A stretch of 64,000 bases of DNA from positions 27,245 to 91,244 of the forward strand of contig MCGO01000153.1 in the NCBI GenBank assembly GCA_002104985.1, given 5' to 3'. Shown piece by piece: positions 45,560-54,441 of this stretch. The stretch's first letter is position 1; each line of letters starts with the position of its first letter. The position numbers were made by a program, and so were the translations under genes. Source of the DNA: Rhizoclosmatium globosum. Its lineage: Eukaryota > Chytridiomycota > Chytridiomycetes > Chytridiales > Chytriomycetaceae. The notes under the pieces are model-generated. The model saw only the letters and a program-made list of their open reading frames with translations. It made no database searches and was not told where the DNA came from.

Positions 45560-46702
45560 CGGTGGCGCGGTTGAAACAGTTGCTCTTTTGAGAGGAGTTT
45601 TTTGTGTTTCAGAGTTTCAAGGCAATCAGCGTAAGGGTTCAATCTCTGCCATACGCACCAAGAATAGCAGTGTTTTCAGTAACATAAAAAAGGAATCGCC
45701 TCACTTTCTGGAAGGGGTCATAACCGCACGTGTTTTTTCTTGGTTGTAGTGGAGATCCGAAGACTAGAAAAAAAAGTTAATTAACACAAAGATGGGGAAG
45801 CGTGTTGCTGTCATTGGATCCGGCCCAGCAGGAGCCATCACTGCCATTGCGCTCAAGAGACAGGGATTCGAGGTATGGATTGCATTCGCCCCCGTGGCTT
45901 TTGAATTCGCCGGATTGGGTGGCTCCATGAGATAAGGGCATAGGGCAACTCGCTAACGTTGAATGCAACCATAGCCAACCCTCTATGAGAAGGTGAACCC
46001 TGTCGAGGAGGTTATCGCTGCCGTCAAGAGAGGCGAGCCTGTTGCTATTTCGTTTGGGCAGGATGGAGGTGGTTTCTCCATCTCAGGAAACGGTGTCAAG
46101 GTGCTTAAGCACTTGGGCATCTGGAACTACTTCTCTGAGTACCATGACGATCCCATCCTTGAGCTGAACTTGATGTTGTTTGATGGAACGGTATGAGGCA
46201 TTGCTAATATCCTCATCTCCACTAGATGATCTAATTTGACAAACAATCACATCCAACAGGATCGCATCACCCGAAAGACCCATAAGGAGGAGAAGGAGCA
46301 GTCCATCCATATTATGCGAGGAAAGCTCCAAACCGCCTTGATGAAGGCTGCGAACGATTTGGGAATCAAGGTCTATGGAGGCAAGAAGCTCACTTCCGTC
46401 ACCCAGACTCCTTCCGAAGTTACCATTGAATTTGCGGATGGAACTGTGACCTCTGTTGACTTTGTTATCGGTGCCGACGGTATCAACTCCAAGGTTCGCC
46501 GTCTTGTCTTCCCAGAAGCCCCATCTGCCGTTGTTCGTGGAACCGGATACGCTACTGTCTGTGACGTCCTGAACCCTGATGGAACCGATATCGGCTTCTT
46601 CAACCACCACGCAGGTATCTACAGCGACCCACTGCACAACCGTTTCATTTTCACGTCTCGTGTTGGAAAGACTGAGGGAGACGTCAAGATCTACCTGTTG
46701 GA

Positions 46703-46707
46703 CACGT
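46703..46707. repeat. Target-site duplication, left copy (CACGT)
   Basis: The five bases before the left LTR equal the five bases after the right LTR (53714-53718). Confidence 0.9.
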
Positions 46708-47096
46708 TGTTAACTGCTGCCGGGATGTGTAATTGCACGAGAATTCGTCCGTTCGGAAGAAAAGAGGAAAACCGACATGTGTTTCACATTGTCGGAATCA
46801 CGAAATTCTCCGATCCGGTTTGTCAACATCAAAGACCGAACACACAACTACCGGCACACCCAAGCCGTAATCGGACTTGGACAAGACACGAGCGTTAAGC
46901 CGAACACCCAAGCTCCAGCGTCAGTTCTTCCAAAAGCGTAAGTCACGCATCAATCATCTGATCGCGCACTAACCGCTTTCGGCGAATTGGCTTAATCGTG
47001 TCTCGCTACCGCTGACATACATCACAAGGTAATCAGTTTATTGACATTGTATCCACTCAAGGAATGGGACCTATGGTAAGCCCATAGACACCAACA
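46708..47096 (-). repeat. LTR (3' LTR of the copia element)
   Basis: 389 bp, TG...CA on the plus strand (TGTTAACTGC ... ACACCAACA). By eye it matches 53325-53713 at every base. It contains a 63-codon frame open from the host gene that ends in TAA. Confidence 0.95.
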
Positions 47097-47105
47097 CCCC
47101 CTTGT
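47097..47105 (-). other. Polypurine tract of the copia element
   Basis: On the minus strand ACAAGGGGG sits directly before the 3' LTR, in the position of the plus-strand primer. The same ACAAGGGGG string recurs about 50 bp further inside, near 47149-47157. Confidence 0.6.
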
Positions 47106-47351
47106 GACAACAAACTGTTGGCATTGTGATGTTACCAGTTGACTATACCCCCTTGTAAGTCAAGTATCATGTTTTCATATTACGTATTAAACCCCCAAAT
47201 ACAGGCGACCTACTCGCGACGTGCGACAAGGGAATTGAACCCAACTGTATTTGTTGCGATGTCAACTAAGGGTTTAAAACTATTTATTAGATAAGAACAC
47301 TAAATAGAAATAAATCAATCAACGTATATAACGAAGAAAGAAATAAAACCA

Positions 47352-50300
47352 TTAAAGCGCCCTAAACGACTGAGACAGAGTCGAAGGCTCCGCTACACCC
47401 GCTCTCACCGCCGCAAAACTACGCATACCAAGTAAACCGAGAAGATAATGGTGTTGAGGACTCGGTAAAGCTTTTGTCAAGATATCCGCTAACATCAACT
47501 CTGTTGGGCACCACAACAACTTCACGGTTGCATTATCAATGTTCTCACGAATGAAATGAGTCTTGATTTCCATGTGCTTAATACGAGCGTGATGAATTGG
47601 ATTAACTGCAATCGCAATCACTGATTGATTATCCTGGTGCATAGTGGTAGGTGTGTCAACCTTGAACCCTAATTCACTCAAGAATCCTCTGAACCAAATA
47701 GTTTCCTTGATTCCTTCGACCAACGCACCGATTTCAGCTTCGGTCGAAGATAAGGCAGTCGTAGCTTGTTTCTTGGAAAACCACACAATCGGGCAACCAA
47801 ACAACATGAAGATGTATCCACTGCGAGATTTACGATCGTCTTCCTGACCGTAACTAGCGTCTGTATATCCGACTTCCCTCATTCCTTCAGGTAACACCAT
47901 CCGACGTTCTTGATTAAGATCCTCCACAGCAGTGTCGAATACAATCATTTCAGGAGACGCGGATTTTCGGAAGAATAACCCAAGATCGTGAGTTTTTCGA
48001 AGATATAATAGGACACGTAGCGCAGCTTTCATATCATGAATACACGGAGGTGATTTCTGGTACTGAGCCAATGTGTTGACGGAATACAGAATGTCTAAAC
48101 GAGTTTGCATCGCCAAGTACAACAATTTCGCGATAAGTCTCACGTACACTGATGTTTCTTCAGGTCCGAGGTGTTGACTGTTCGTATCATGTTTCCAATC
48201 TGTCGCCATAGGAGTCTCCTTCCATTTTTCTTCAGGAATATCCCACACGTTGTGCTCTTCCAGTAAAGAACGAATGTAGTTTGGTTGTCCAATCCAGATC
48301 CCATCTTTCGTATGTTCAACCTGAATCTTCAATATCCATTGAGCAACGCCTAAGTCCTTAATTTCGAAACGAGCACGGATTGAGTCTTTGACTTTCTTTA
48401 TGACTTCCTTGTCACTGCATGCAACGAGGATATCATCAACGTACGTCACGACAAGAATCAGTTTTCGTGTTTCCGGATCGATTTTAAGGTAGGTGCAAGA
48501 GTCAGACTTCATTCGAGTGAATCCTTGTTCAATGAAGAACGCGTCGAGTACTTTCCACCATTCACGCCCAGCCTGATGTAATCCATACAGGGATTTGATC
48601 AGTTTTGCGTACAGTGGTGTTCCATCGGGAGCGAATTCCTCGAATCCTTGGGGCATTTTCATCCAATTCGTTTCAGAAAGTGTGCCGTACAGGAATGCAG
48701 TCTTAACGTCAAGTTGTTCAACAGTAAGTCCAAAAGCAGCGCTCATGGCCAGTAGGATACGGACCACTTTGGCTTTCACGACAGGTGAGTGTGTAGAGTT
48801 AAAATCAACTTCAGGTACTTGAAAGTTCCCCATAGCGACCAGTCTTGCTTTGAAACGGTCAATGAATCCATACGGGTTGATTTTGTAATCGAAGACCCAC
48901 TTAGACGCAATGGCCCGTCTCCCTTTCGGCAAGGGTTCCACTGTATACACTCCTCTATTCCGGATTGACTCTATCTCCACGAGCATCGCACGTAGGAAAT
49001 ACTTTCTGAATCGACCTTCAAGAGCTTGTCGAACATTTTTCGGGACTGGAGGGGCTGATGAGATATGGATCTCCTCAGTTGGGATATCAGACTCTGCAGC
49101 CTCGTCCCAATCAAACTGAAGAGGCGGGAGACGCGCCCGGTTAATTCGTTCGCGATCTTCCTCCAACTTGCTCAATTTCCCGTCGAATAGTTTGTCAATC
49201 TTTTCCAGAGCTTTGTCACGCTTCTTCTCCAAATGAGGATGGCGCACTCCCTTCACGGAATCGATCAAGTCACTGATTGCATAGAACTCATCAATTTCAG
49301 ATTCAATTTCTCCAACGACCTCGAGCATCCTCTTGTCTAGGTGAGATTGAACTTCTGAGTCAGAGACTGTACTTATGTTTTCGAACGCTAATAACCCTCG
49401 TTGACGGTGATCTGGACATTTATGGGTTTAGTTGAACTCAAATCCGTTGAGTTCAAGTTATTTACCATTAGCGAGAGGGGATCCTACTTCTGCTTGCTCC
49501 ACAGTGGAGTTCAGTGCAAGAATAGCGTCAATCGCTTCCAGTTTTTCACGGTTTTTGGTCACATTAGTTACCAGGTTGGCTCGGTGATAGATCAACTTCA
49601 GTATGTCCGAATCAACGACTTCCCCTTTCGCAAGCGCAGCTCGAGTACGTTTCCGCAGTCGATATCCGTCACTTGTGGGTGCTAAGTTGTCATCCTTCCA
49701 GTGCGATCCATCTAAGCCCGTTTTCTTGTTTGACGGCGCCGCTGCGAGGAGGGTTTCTTCTTCCTCAGCATCGGAGTCAGGATCTATGTATTGATATAGT
49801 GGTTGGATCAGATGGTAATTGGGCTGATTCGTTGTTACGGATCTTACCATCATCTACAGATTCCAAGTCACCATCAACTGTCTTACTGGTCACAGGTGTA
49901 GTCCGTTGATCATCACCATCATCGTCGGACTCATCTATTTGCAGTTGTCGTAAGTCATAATCTGTTATCAACAGCTGTTGGATAAGGGACATCCACTCAC
50001 CCAACAGTTCCGGCACTTTCTCAAGGACTTCACCCTCAAATTCAATTTGTCCGTCATCTTCAATCAACTCATCGTCTGCAAGAACGGTTTCGCCATCCTC
50101 GTCATCTGAATCGTCGTCGATTGGTTCTGATGCCTCCGCATTTTCTTCTGGTTCCCAATTCAAGTTTGTGAACGGGTTCAAATAGGCAGGCTTCAGAGTT
50201 TGACCAGGCAGAATTGACTCCAAGAGTCGGATTTGAAATTCCTTGTGAACTTTTCGAGTGCGGTACTTATAGACATACGCGATTCGCGCTTTATGATCGA

Positions 50301-51687
50301 TCCACCCAAGGAAGAACGCGGGCTCAGCCTTATGCCCTGGCTGGCAGCGCTTACTACGTTTCTCCTTGCGTACAAAGACGGCTACAAGACAACCAAAGAT
50401 TCTCACCAATTCTGGTTTCGGTTTTTCGCCTGTTTCCAGTTCATGGGGAGATTTGCCATCGTTTCCAAAAGGTATCATGGTTCCAATCAGACAAGAATAT
50501 CTCATCGCGTATGGAAACCACAGTTGTTTCTGTCCAGCTACTGAGAGAAACATTGAGCTCTTTCGCGATAAATCCCAAGGGGTCTCTCTGCAGCATTCAA
50601 TGCCTGTGTATCGGCTGGTGACAATTTCATTGAGATCTGGTTTGGCTCGTGAGTGCGACAGTATTCTTCAATCTCTTTGCACTTGAGCTCGCCTCCATCT
50701 CCTTGAATCACGACCAACTTCTCTTCCAATTCAACTTCTTTGGTTTTGCAAAACGAAATGAAAGCTGATTTGAACGTATCCATCCCTTGAGGAACAGACA
50801 CCAGGCCTTTCGAGTATATTTGTCGTAGATGAATGAACAGTTAGTCTCTCCATTTCGTCCTCGACTTTTCAGCTGGAACGAATCTTCCGAGATGGTGTGG
50901 AAACGCCGGGTTGGTACTGAGCCTACAGATCCTGTCTTCCGCCTTCTGAAATTCACCAATTGACACACTAAGCAGTCGGTTGGGTCCTTCTTGAAGTTGT
51001 ACGAAATGCCAGCCATCTTCAACGTTCTTTTCACCATCTCCATTCCAACGTGGCCCAAGCGATTGTGCCAGGTAAGGTACGGAACGTGCTTCGATTTTCC
51101 AGTGAATGTTTTTGTACCCAATGTGTTTGCCTTAATCTTGGGTGCGATTGCAGGAGGGGTTCCTTCCATCAAGTCCAAGTAATAGAGGTTTCCAATGCGT
51201 CGTCCAATTTTCAACGTACGGTCTGTCTTTCTCAGGTACAAGTAGACTGCCGAATCGCCGAAAATGACGTAATCATCTGTTCCCTTCACAAGCTGGCTGA
51301 TCGAAATCAGTGTTTCCGCAAGCGCTGGGACCCAGAACGCAGAGACTTCCCTCTTTACTCCACCCAAATTGAGAGTGATCCATCCTTTCCCTTTAATCGG
51401 TACAGGCGAATCATCCCCAAGGTAAACAAATTCGTTATCCAAAAATTCGAAAGTTTCACGATTAAAGCGCGCCAGCGAATCAGTCATCAGGTTTGTTGCC
51501 CCCGAGTCCATCATCCCTACCACACCCGTTTTATTATCTCCTTTCTTTGCCACTTTCATTCCTCTTGCAACACAAATACCATCTTCACTCATTCCCGCTA
51601 TTTGATCCATCCAATAATATTCAGATATCGGTTGAGTCGTCGAGGAACTAGAGTTAAATGGTGAACCAAAGAGCGGTTGCCCAAGGT
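47352..51687 (-). CDS. Copia pol: protease, integrase, reverse transcriptase, RNase H
   Basis: Reading leftward: an aspartic protease (MMDSGATNLM, DSG at about 51501-51509); the integrase zinc-binding region (WHNRLGH then CLVCQL); an integrase core; a long acidic linker; reverse transcriptase with the copia text QLDVKTAFLYGTL and the catalytic YVDD at 48432-48443; RNase H with GYTDASYG, SSTEAE and HQDNQS; the end at 47352. Two introns fall in the acidic linker (49784-49847, 49412-49465) and both restore frame. Integrase homology shifts frame twice, near 50785 and 50555, each consistent with one missing base in GGG or AA. Reverse transcriptase and RNase H are otherwise intact. As it stands this copy would not make a full integrase unless the shifts are sequence errors. 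Confidence 0.88.
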
Positions 51688-51735
51688 CTGTTTAGATTGT
51701 GTTTCAAAGAGGGAGGCGTTTCAGTTTCGAAACTT

Positions 51736-53281
51736 TCAAACATTAAAACTCACATTGGCTAGGTTCTTTGCAGCGTTTGCTACTTGCTTCTTATGAATTC
51801 CGAGACCCTTTCCAGTTGCATCACCAGTGTTCATTTGAGAGGACTGGCCTTGGGAAACTCCCATTCGCTTCTGCATGATCTCGAATAAAGCGTTTTTGTT
51901 ACCAGTCTGCATACTTTGTAGCAACTTTGGACAGGTTGTGAATCCGTGAGTGGAACCATCGTCGCAAGCTTGGCAAGGCTCAAATTTGGCCTTCTTTGGT
52001 GCTTTCGGATTGTTTCCCCCATTTCCTCTCTTATTCCCTGACACCGCGGCTGCTGTAGCGTCTTGGTTGGCTTTGGCGTCAGCTTTGGCTTGCTGTTGGG
52101 CTTGTTTCTTTGCAGCCTGAGCAGCTGCAGCGGTTTCCTTCCTTTCCTTTTCACTTGTCGAAGTGATTTCGGATTGTTGGGCACCCGCTGTCAGTTCCTC
52201 GTTGGTACAAAGGGTTTGGAGTTCGTCCAACAAGCTGTCACACGTACCAAAGTTGGCGGCAAAGTCGTTTGATTCCATCTTCTGGCGTATCGGAACGAAT
52301 CTATGTTGATTTAAACAGATTTAGAAACGTTTCAAAACAGGTAGTTCCGTGAGGCGTGGAACGCCTCGCTACACCATAATTTTAGAGTTTTAATTTCACC
52401 TTAATCCAAAAGAAGTCGATCCGTCAGGGAGGGAGAGCAAGGCTTGGCTCTGTAACAGCTCCTTGACGAGGATTCCAATGAAAGTGGATGCAAGTTTGTC
52501 TGCGTCTGGAACGTCACCGAGTCCTTTCTTGACTCTCGAGTCAAGGATGGAACAGTTTCGGATCACCTTCCGCCAATCACCTACAAACTTTCTCCAGGCT
52601 TTGGTCTGGTGTCTCTCCTTTGGGCTTATCGTTGTTTTGAAAACCCGAGCGAACCAGTGGTGAAACTGTAGTCCTTTGAATAAAGAACCATTAGTTTCGA
52701 ATTCCGATTTGAAAAGACCAACGTCACTTACCGCTTCCTTCCAAGTTTGCCATCAGTTTTCTGGCCACACGGAAAGCGGTGTATAAGTTTGGCTTTTCTT
52801 TGTACTCAACCGAACCCTTGATTTCATTCCATCTAGATTCAGGAATGAAAGTCTCAAAGGCACTTTGGGCTATGTCTTCTTCGGCTCTCCACTCTTTGTA
52901 CTCAGCCAACTCCTTGGAGTAGGTTTCGTACTCGTAGCGGATGCTCTTTTCGGAGAAATCATAACCCTCCAAATCCAATCTAAACTGATTTAGATCCGTC
53001 GAATACTTTGTGAATGCTTCTGCCTTGGCAGCATCATCCATATTCGTATAATCAGGAGCAGCAGGATAGACAGGTCTTGGATGCGGATTCTTTGCCGTCA
53101 CAGGGCTCGGGTGAGTCTTCACTACGTCATTGTCTAAATTGTATCCCAGGCCGCTAGCTCGCAGAAATTTTCCAACCTTGTCCAACTGTTCGCCTACGGT
53201 TGCGGGTTCTTCGCCACTCACTTTAGGAGGACGTTTAACACCAGTATCCGCTTTGCGTTCAGTTTTCTGTAAGTTGTTCAT
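51736..53281 (-). CDS. Copia gag, interrupted by two introns
   Basis: Starts MNNLQKTERKADTGVKRPPK at 53281, 44 bp inside the 5' LTR. Exon 1 runs to 52732, exon 2 is 52673-52400 (HHWFARVFKT, LVKELLQSQALL) and exon 3 runs from 52300. Junction phases (1 then 2) keep the frame through both introns. Exon 3 carries a Gln/Ala/Lys-rich stretch and a zinc-knuckle-like CQACDDGSTHGFTTC, with five instead of four residues before the histidine. If the segment at 51753-51688 is retained, gag ends in TGA at 51736. If it is removed at the perfect GTGAGT donor, the frame runs 28 codons and stops; an alternative donor four bases on would join gag to pol in frame. Confidence 0.82.
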
Positions 53282-53324
53282 TTCTGGGACGACGGTGATG
53301 AGGATGCTAAGACGAACGCTTTTG

Positions 53325-53713
53325 TGTTAACTGCTGCCGGGATGTGTAATTGCACGAGAATTCGTCCGTTCGGAAGAAAAGAGGAAAACCGACATGTGTT
53401 TCACATTGTCGGAATCACGAAATTCTCCGATCCGGTTTGTCAACATCAAAGACCGAACACACAACTACCGGCACACCCAAGCCGTAATCGGACTTGGACA
53501 AGACACGAGCGTTAAGCCGAACACCCAAGCTCCAGCGTCAGTTCTTCCAAAAGCGTAAGTCACGCATCAATCATCTGATCGCGCACTAACCGCTTTCGGC
53601 GAATTGGCTTAATCGTGTCTCGCTACCGCTGACATACATCACAAGGTAATCAGTTTATTGACATTGTATCCACTCAAGGAATGGGACCTATGGTAAGCCC
53701 ATAGACACCAACA
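53325..53713 (-). repeat. LTR (5' LTR of the copia element)
   Basis: 389 bp, same as the LTR at 46708-47096. On the minus strand it precedes gag, so it should hold the promoter. Its 63-codon open frame has no known role. Confidence 0.95.
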
Positions 53714-53718
53714 CACGT
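53714..53718. repeat. Target-site duplication, right copy (CACGT)
   Basis: Matches 46703-46707 exactly and is followed directly by the resumed monooxygenase exon. Confidence 0.9.
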
Positions 53719-54441
53719 CGCAGCCTTTGGAGGGTGGTGACGACTGGCGTCCATACACTGATCTCCCTAAGGAGACTGCGAAGCTTGCGGACCTTGTTGA
53801 ATCGTGGGGTGCTGTTCCAGGTGTTGTGATGGGTGTCAGACGTGCCAAGAGAATTAATCCAGTTAACTTGTACGACCTCGCTGATTTGCCTTCTTTCTAC
53901 AAGGGCCGTGTTGTGCTTGTTGGTGATGCTGCACACGGAACTGTTCCATTGTATGGACAAGGTTTGAACCAGGCTTTGGAGGATGGTGGTGTTTTGGGAG
54001 ACCTTTTGGGACATTTCCAGGACACTGAGTACACCAAGGCGTTTGAATTGTATGACAAGATCCGTATCCCACGTACTCGTTTGACTGCTGCTGTTGCGCG
54101 TAAGACCATGGAACGAATGATGGTGTCTAGTTACCCTAAGCAGGTTATTGCGAGATTCATGATGAGAACTGTCATCAACATTAAGGAATTCTTGGGCAAG
54201 GACGATGAGGTTTTGTTCCATGACTTCCGTGATGATGTTCGTGCTGCTGTTCCAGTCATTCAATTCAAGTAAGATTTTTTGTGCACATAGACCTTCGTAG
54301 ATTCTCTGTTTCTTCTGTTATTGATACGGGTATTATAAAATAAATGTAATTCGTTTGGCCTTCGTTTGTCTCTCATCGTGGCCACGTTGTGTTGAATCTC
54401 AGCCAAAGACAAAATGGCTTTATTAGAACGACTAATGAAAA

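Follow-up and report, generated by a model that had tools for sequence, protein, structure and literature searches.

Long terminal repeat (LTR) retrotransposons are expected to shed introns, as copying via spliced RNA should erase them. According to the available part of a 2025 review, intron loss in a 1985 Ty experiment is the classic proof that LTR elements move through RNA, and plant LTR elements are generally without introns, Ogre and EVADE being the exceptions named (PMC12786077). BARE is given in the accessible portion of a 2013 paper as the only Copia element besides Drosophila copia in which splicing had been demonstrated (PMC3735527), and, according to the available sections of a study of Penelope elements, these differ from every other type of retrotransposon in that they spread intron-containing genes (PMC3846280). 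Here we describe a Copia element of the chytrid Rhizoclosmatium globosum, located at positions 46708 to 53713 of a 64,000-nucleotide stretch of contig MCGO01000153.1 (hereafter the window, to which coordinates refer). Together with three other full-length copies found by searching the genome (56.9 Mb, 420 contigs), L010, L011 and L012, it makes up a family that we named F1. On the basis of DNA sequence comparisons, we consider it very likely that F1 gag-pol carries five, probably six, spliceosomal introns, that spliced RNA is its message and intron-keeping RNA its template, and that the clade to which F1 belongs already bore introns before its families split.

BARE1 of barley and Drosophila copia are, like F1 as we read it, Copia elements with spliced RNA, and the accessible text on BARE describes separate pools of translated and replicated RNA (PMC3735527). 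In both elements, however, splicing gives a Gag-only RNA and the unspliced RNA holds one open reading frame, whereas the F1 frame is incomplete unless several introns are removed. The Arabidopsis Copia element EVADE (ATCOPIA93) produces a short GAG RNA by alternative splicing, with nuclear enrichment of the unspliced full-length form, as reported in the part of the article available (PMC8892269). Unspliced EVADE RNA encodes the full polyprotein; unspliced F1 RNA would encode only some 185 residues from the N-terminus of Gag, and L010 thus lacks the complete Gag-Pol in unspliced RNA that characterizes BARE and EVADE. In Ogre, a plant Ty3-type element, partial splicing permits a full polyprotein according to the accessible portion of the source (PMC6317226), but Ogre belongs to another superfamily, has another domain order and contains one such intron against five or six in F1. 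Penelope-like elements resemble F1 as retroelements that transpose with introns kept, in the sections available (PMC3846280), but they are not LTR elements. The intron-bearing DNA transposons of Cryptococcus are also fungal mobile elements, and their poorly spliced introns act as a signal for RNA interference (SCANR) in the available text (PMC7175516); they have no RNA passage, so their introns pose no copying problem. Full-text literature searches returned no Copia element with several gag-pol introns, in a coverage from which subscription papers and Repbase were mostly absent, and a database entry is therefore possible. The word "intron" does not occur in the main text of "LTR Retrotransposons in Fungi" (PMC3248453). 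A Copia clade that was active recently and has five or more introns would show strict separation of template and message outside retroviruses, and such elements would escape annotation that seeks a single long frame. The genome brings together multiple families, insertions of recent date, relatives that lack introns and an intron confined to one family, and so makes intron gain, intron retention and RNA sorting directly testable.

Segments interrupting the gag-pol gene of F1

The window element is a full-length Copia (Ty1-type) LTR retrotransposon of 7006 bp on the minus strand. An uninterrupted gag-pol frame, which is usual but not obligatory for Ty1/Copia elements, is absent from all four F1 copies, in which segments bounded by GT and AG break the frame. 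An initial annotation of the window had proposed five such segments as introns, of 58, 99, 66, 64 and 54 bp; their coordinates, minus-strand orientation and lengths were correct, and all five occupy the same place with the same length in 4/4 full-length copies. Exon 1 (52732-53281), an open frame for N-terminal Gag that has matches in two other Copia families named C4 and C359, is separated by intron 1 (52674-52731; 58 bp, phase 1) from exon 2 (52400-52673), an open Gag frame that aligns with C4. Intron 2 (52301-52399; 99 bp, phase 2) precedes exon 3 (51754-52300), an open frame for C-terminal Gag in which a cysteine/histidine motif was recognized by eye. Intron 3 (51688-51753; 66 bp, phase 0) marks the Gag/protease boundary, ahead of the protease and integrase exon 4 (49848-51687), which in L010 and L011 is one open frame of 648 amino acids and in the window copy is broken. 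Intron 4 (iB, 49784-49847; 64 bp, phase 1) lies in the linker between integrase and reverse transcriptase (RT), and is followed by exon 5 (49466-49783), an open frame in this linker, by intron 5 (iC, 49412-49465; 54 bp, phase 1), and by exon 6 (47352-49411), which encodes RT, with its RVT_2 domain, and RNase H and is open in all four copies.

In L010, the donor phases (1, 2, 0, 1 and 1) agree with the acceptor side at all five segments, in accordance with the phases 1, 2, 1 and 1 initially given for the 58-, 99-, 64- and 54-bp segments. Retention of any of the five closes the L010 frame after 1 to 23 codons; in intron 3, five codons are read before an in-frame stop is reached. The 66-bp segment behaves differently between copies: its removal leads into the next open frame in L010 and L011 but not in the window copy, because the latter has single-base length differences in the protease/integrase region relative to the other three copies. 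That removing it does not restore the frame in the window copy had been missed in the initial annotation. A further 66-bp segment within exon 4 (49935-50000, GTGAGT..AAATAG) is in frame and free of stops in 4/4 copies. We consider this segment, designated iA and also overlooked initially, a likely sixth intron on account of its sequence and of introns in related families. Stop-free GT-AG segments whose length is a multiple of three are invisible to frame reading, and we noted such segments of 66 bp in F1 (49935-50000), 48 bp in C4 (L019) and 57 bp in the family on contigs C388 and C129 (L020, L021).

All five F1 donors match GTRA[AG], a pattern that is present 23 times in 5589 exon bases, or about 0.16 times per 40-base stretch, and GC content is 0.37 in introns against 0.46 in exons. 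Both donors and base composition resemble those of host introns and count towards intron identity. Of 22 element introns, 18 contain a branch-like CTRAY or CTAAA motif. As a host sample we used 15 introns inferred in OPT transporter genes, which measure 43-58 bp, 3 of 18 candidates, all longer than 100 bp, having been discarded as probable artefacts. Donors and acceptors are host-like overall, with the exception of the AAG acceptor of intron 1. The initial claim that the segments have the size of host introns is only partly right: those of 54 and 58 bp fall within the range of this small sample, and those of 64, 66 and 99 bp are longer. Folding of L010 introns predicted a 7-bp stem, GAGGCGT/ACGCCTC, in intron 2 (−17.4 kcal/mol; window 52301-52399) and a 10-bp stem in intron 5 (−10.7 kcal/mol; window 49412-49465); such stems could hide or expose splice sites.

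Read in the frames left by splicing, the exons change in the manner of coding sequence, and the segments between them look like introns. L010 and L012 differ in their exons by 25 synonymous and 5 replacement changes, against a synonymous share of 28% expected without selection (P = 5e-10). The exons of L010 and L011 are identical, and L009 and L010 differ by 5 synonymous and 5 replacement changes, as is possible for a broken copy. Introns of L010 and L012 differ at 7 of 341 sites, an odds ratio of 3.9 relative to exons (P = 0.005, exon total taken as 5550). In another intron-bearing family, F2, 14 of 15 pairs of copies show 29-47 synonymous against 5-9 replacement changes, and the remaining pair has a single synonymous change. 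We rejected faster intron evolution as a general sign of introns, as it is true for L010 and L012 but fails in F2.

Related Copia families and the history of their introns

Other Copia families were found by RT and integrase searches of the genome, and translated flanks were compared by eye to match intron positions, introns 1 and 2 alone being also tested by alignment. GT-AG segments break gag-pol in C388 and C129 (one family), C4, C359 and F2, such that the intron-rich Copia lineage suggested in the initial annotation is supported and spans several families. F2 (L023-L028, on C376, C418, C124, C363, C1 and C380) has 299-bp LTRs, a length of about 6.98 kb and five introns of its own, one of them in the integrase SH3 region, all kept in 6/6 aligned copies out of 8 with long RT matches. 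F3 (C52, C301), with one frame of 1958 amino acids, and C41, with one of 1659, were both taken as intronless.

Several positions recur between families. Intron 1 interrupts the same residue, in phase 1, in F1, C388, C129 and C359; at this place C4 has a 48-bp in-frame, stop-free segment (GTAAAG..AAATAG) and about the corresponding number of extra residues relative to F1. The intron at the Gag/protease boundary is common to F1, C4 and C359, whereas the nearby introns of C388 and F2 occupy other positions. In the linker, a phase-1 intron closely follows an F-E-G-E-like motif in C4, C388, C129 and F2, at the place of the candidate intron iA of F1, a second linker intron, corresponding to intron 4, is common to F1, C4, C388 and F2, and a third, corresponding to intron 5, is common to F1 and C4. 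C388 and C129 also contain a 57-bp in-frame, stop-free segment (GTGACA..CTTCAG; length by eye) in the LHQ/AGREW stretch of RT, which is conserved apart from this and is continuous in F1, C4 and F2. The environmental relatives P0121 and P0123 also terminate at the place of iA; their likely RT halves, P0002 and P0004, are on contigs of matching length (7978 and 7203), which each pair would share. A BLAST search with exon 5 against a set of 120 proteins gave no match at 1e-3, and one scan of IMG/VR contigs gave no RT match. The length of the N-terminal extension of environmental RT proteins was discarded as a sign of intron 5, exon 6 length itself varying between families.

Intron 2 was found in the F1 family only: its 99-bp sequence has four matches in the genome, all within F1 copies. 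An introner origin was rejected, as the sequence is confined to these four copies and no introner-like spread was seen. Its absence was sought in seven targets and is clear in C4, C388 and F2, where the F1 flanks align 4, 4 and 2 residues apart in continuous proteins (shuffle p 0.003 to 0.020). It is partial in P0124 (flanks 12 apart, 9 F1 residues unaligned) and P0125 (29 apart, 22 unaligned), and was not obtained for P0122 and F3. The intronless F3 was dropped as a reference for introns 1 and 2 because the alignment is too weak, and C4, C388 and F2 were used instead. That intron 2 is missing from three relatives with a continuous protein supports its identity as an intron.

A maximum-likelihood RT tree of 66 rows, from which C359 was left out, places F1, C4, C388/C129 and F2 in one clade of 26 rows (100/100), most of which are environmental proteins of unknown intron state, with F3 and C41 outside. 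The simplest reading of positions and tree is that introns entered before the F1/C4/C388/F2 clade diversified, that intron 2 was gained later in F1, and that C388 and F2 each acquired or relocated some of theirs. The F1 clade would thus have carried introns since before its families diverged, some positions being old and shared and others family-specific. A gain at the base of the clade and a loss in F3 are both compatible with these data alone. Further Copia families, represented by C13, C29, C146, C153, C212, C377 and C400 and by C284 and C385, have RT frames of about 661 and 623 amino acids, respectively, that recur in several copies, and might also be split by introns.

Template, message and competing explanations

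Twelve insertions (four of F1, six of F2, and those on C388 and C129) have each retained the introns identified for the family concerned, and in 11 of these the LTR pairs are identical; the exception, L025, shows 107 apparent LTR differences that result from a misplaced 3′ LTR, part of the element being duplicated there. Full-length coding copies without the segments, the observation that would have spoken against introns, were looked for and not found (introns kept in 4/4 F1 and 6/6 F2 copies). With 0/12 intronless, spliced RNA would have templated less than about 22% of new insertions at the 95% level, a modest bound. As young copies carry introns, the template looks to be unspliced RNA, in agreement with the initial proposal. 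The message must be spliced RNA since unspliced RNA encodes only about the first 185 residues of Gag; translation of spliced RNA, also proposed initially, finds only indirect support, in exons that are under purifying selection when read as spliced.

We infer from these observations that splicing itself, selective packaging of unspliced RNA and separation of the two RNA pools take place in F1. The host spliceosome would remove the introns from part of the transcripts to give mRNA for Gag and Gag-Pol, and transcripts keeping introns would serve transposition. Most likely, splicing that is weak or regulated would spare part of the RNA, and this unspliced pool alone would carry or expose a packaging signal; alternatively, sorting could rely on a separate RNA class as in BARE, on nuclear retention as in EVADE, or on an intronic packaging signal. 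Intron 3 is situated at the Gag/protease boundary with a stop after five codons, so its optional removal could set the ratio of Gag to Gag-Pol: translation would end with Gag alone when it is retained and proceed to Gag-Pol when it is removed, which would replace a frameshift. A broader proposal, which we hold tentatively and regard as possible but doubtful, is that the clade uses intron retention as part of its life cycle: introns would have persisted over a long history of copying because only fully unspliced RNA would be packaged, probably via signals in or across introns, intron 3 would set the Gag/Gag-Pol ratio, and the introns would tag template versus message in a retrovirus-like but independently reached manner. 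Signals located within introns would be in keeping with the low divergence of F2 introns.

Several observations weigh against spliced introns of ancient origin in F1. Introns of 64, 66 and 99 bp exceed the 43-58 bp of the host sample, itself small, the AAG acceptor of intron 1 is absent from its 15 introns, and a branch-like motif was not found in F1 intron 3 within the scanned range. In F2, introns diverge more per site than exons in 7 of 15 pairs and less in the other 8. Among the four F1 copies, the window copy is frame-broken in protease/integrase by single-base length differences, which may be assembly errors, and L012 (C224) lacks 10 bp upstream of protease; this leaves L010 and L011 as the only intact copies, and with identical exons they are nearly one sample. 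Elsewhere, integrase is interrupted by a stop in both C388 and C129, and neither C4 nor C359 yielded an LTR pair. F2 intron 1 is shifted two bases from the F1 site, introns of C388 and F2 near the zinc motif are placed differently, and F3 gives weak alignments for introns 1 and 2, with a downstream p of 0.58 and p of 0.10 and 0.47. Finally, the tree is partly unresolved inside the intron-bearing clade, and C41 is on a long branch that makes its placement unsure.

The frame breaks of the window copy and the 10 bp missing from L012 are what one might see if the segments were unspliced and the element were a decaying, frame-broken copy with GT-AG pairs present by chance. We find this very improbable given the conservation of place and length of all five segments in 4/4 copies, coding selection on exons, breaks with GT-AG at similar places in other families, and the lack of intron 2 in three continuous relatives. 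That ribosomes bypass the segments instead of having them spliced out is the least credible explanation, hardly worth retaining: nothing was found in its favor, and GT..AG ends, host-like donors, branch-like motifs in 18/22 introns and lower GC content point to spliceosomal introns. Retention would say nothing about the template if F1 and F2 copies were DNA-level duplicates of one old intron-bearing insertion, and duplicated or allelic contigs do exist in the assembly, since the F3 copies on C52 and C301 share the bases adjacent to their LTRs. However, the four F1 copies have different flanks and target-site duplications, flanks also differ among L023, L024, L026, L027 and L028 of F2 and between C388 and C129, and LTR pairs are identical within each differently flanked copy. 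Moreover, L011 has two private bases that are present in both of its own LTRs, as expected after reverse transcription, and we give duplication at the DNA level a very slight chance, marginally below that of chance and decay.

A more serious alternative concerns how template RNA remains unspliced. Rather than being actively selected, it might escape splicing passively, as antisense transcripts or through low splicing in one cell stage. In the accessible parts of the respective papers, an antisense template is proposed for intron retention in Penelope (PMC3846280) and BARE replicates from a separate RNA class that is uncapped and unspliced (PMC3735527). Yet the polypurine tract and LTR order are normal in the F1 element. 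LTR elements prime from tRNA on sense RNA, which also counts against an antisense template. We therefore judge passive escape unlikely, though clearly less so than the preceding explanations, and favor an unspliced template that is actively kept apart from a spliced message.

Element structure and insertion site

The LTRs of F1 have TG..CA ends, show zero differences within a pair and are flanked by a 5-bp duplication in 4/4 copies. In the window, the 5′ LTR (53325-53713, minus strand) and the 3′ LTR (46708-47096, minus strand), both 389 bp long and of the same sequence, lie between two copies of CACGT (46703-46707 and 53714-53718, plus strand), and a polypurine tract, AAGGGGG, recognized by eye, adjoins the 3′ LTR (47097-47103, minus strand). 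A match to RVT_2 (PF07727; E 4.1e-57) identifies a Copia-type RT in the window element, and the Pol_BBD, GAG-pre-integrase and SH3 domains are located upstream of it, in the order typical of Copia; GAG-pre-integrase and SH3 matches are marginally below cut-off in L010. Profile searches gave no match to the integrase core PF00665 in the window element and no Pfam match for the F1 Gag exons; a DSGAT protease motif was seen by eye. The pol frame of L012 starts at an ATG overlapping a stop codon, which is either a possible stop-restart arrangement or mere damage.

Three F1 LTRs outside the four full-length copies were found in an LTR search, at C124:128856-129244 (100% identity), C415:118636-119024 (99%) and C201:135961-136348 (95%), and are probably solo LTRs. 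The window copy is inserted within a plus-strand gene with a FAD-binding domain (PF01494), whose halves lie on both sides of the element. This interrupted gene (46230-46707 and 53714-54272) is FAD-binding monooxygenase-like. Because the homologous contig C24, which is 98% identical in the same gene region, has an empty site with a single CACGT and no element, the window insertion must be young, and it is present in one and absent from the other of two haplotype-like contigs.

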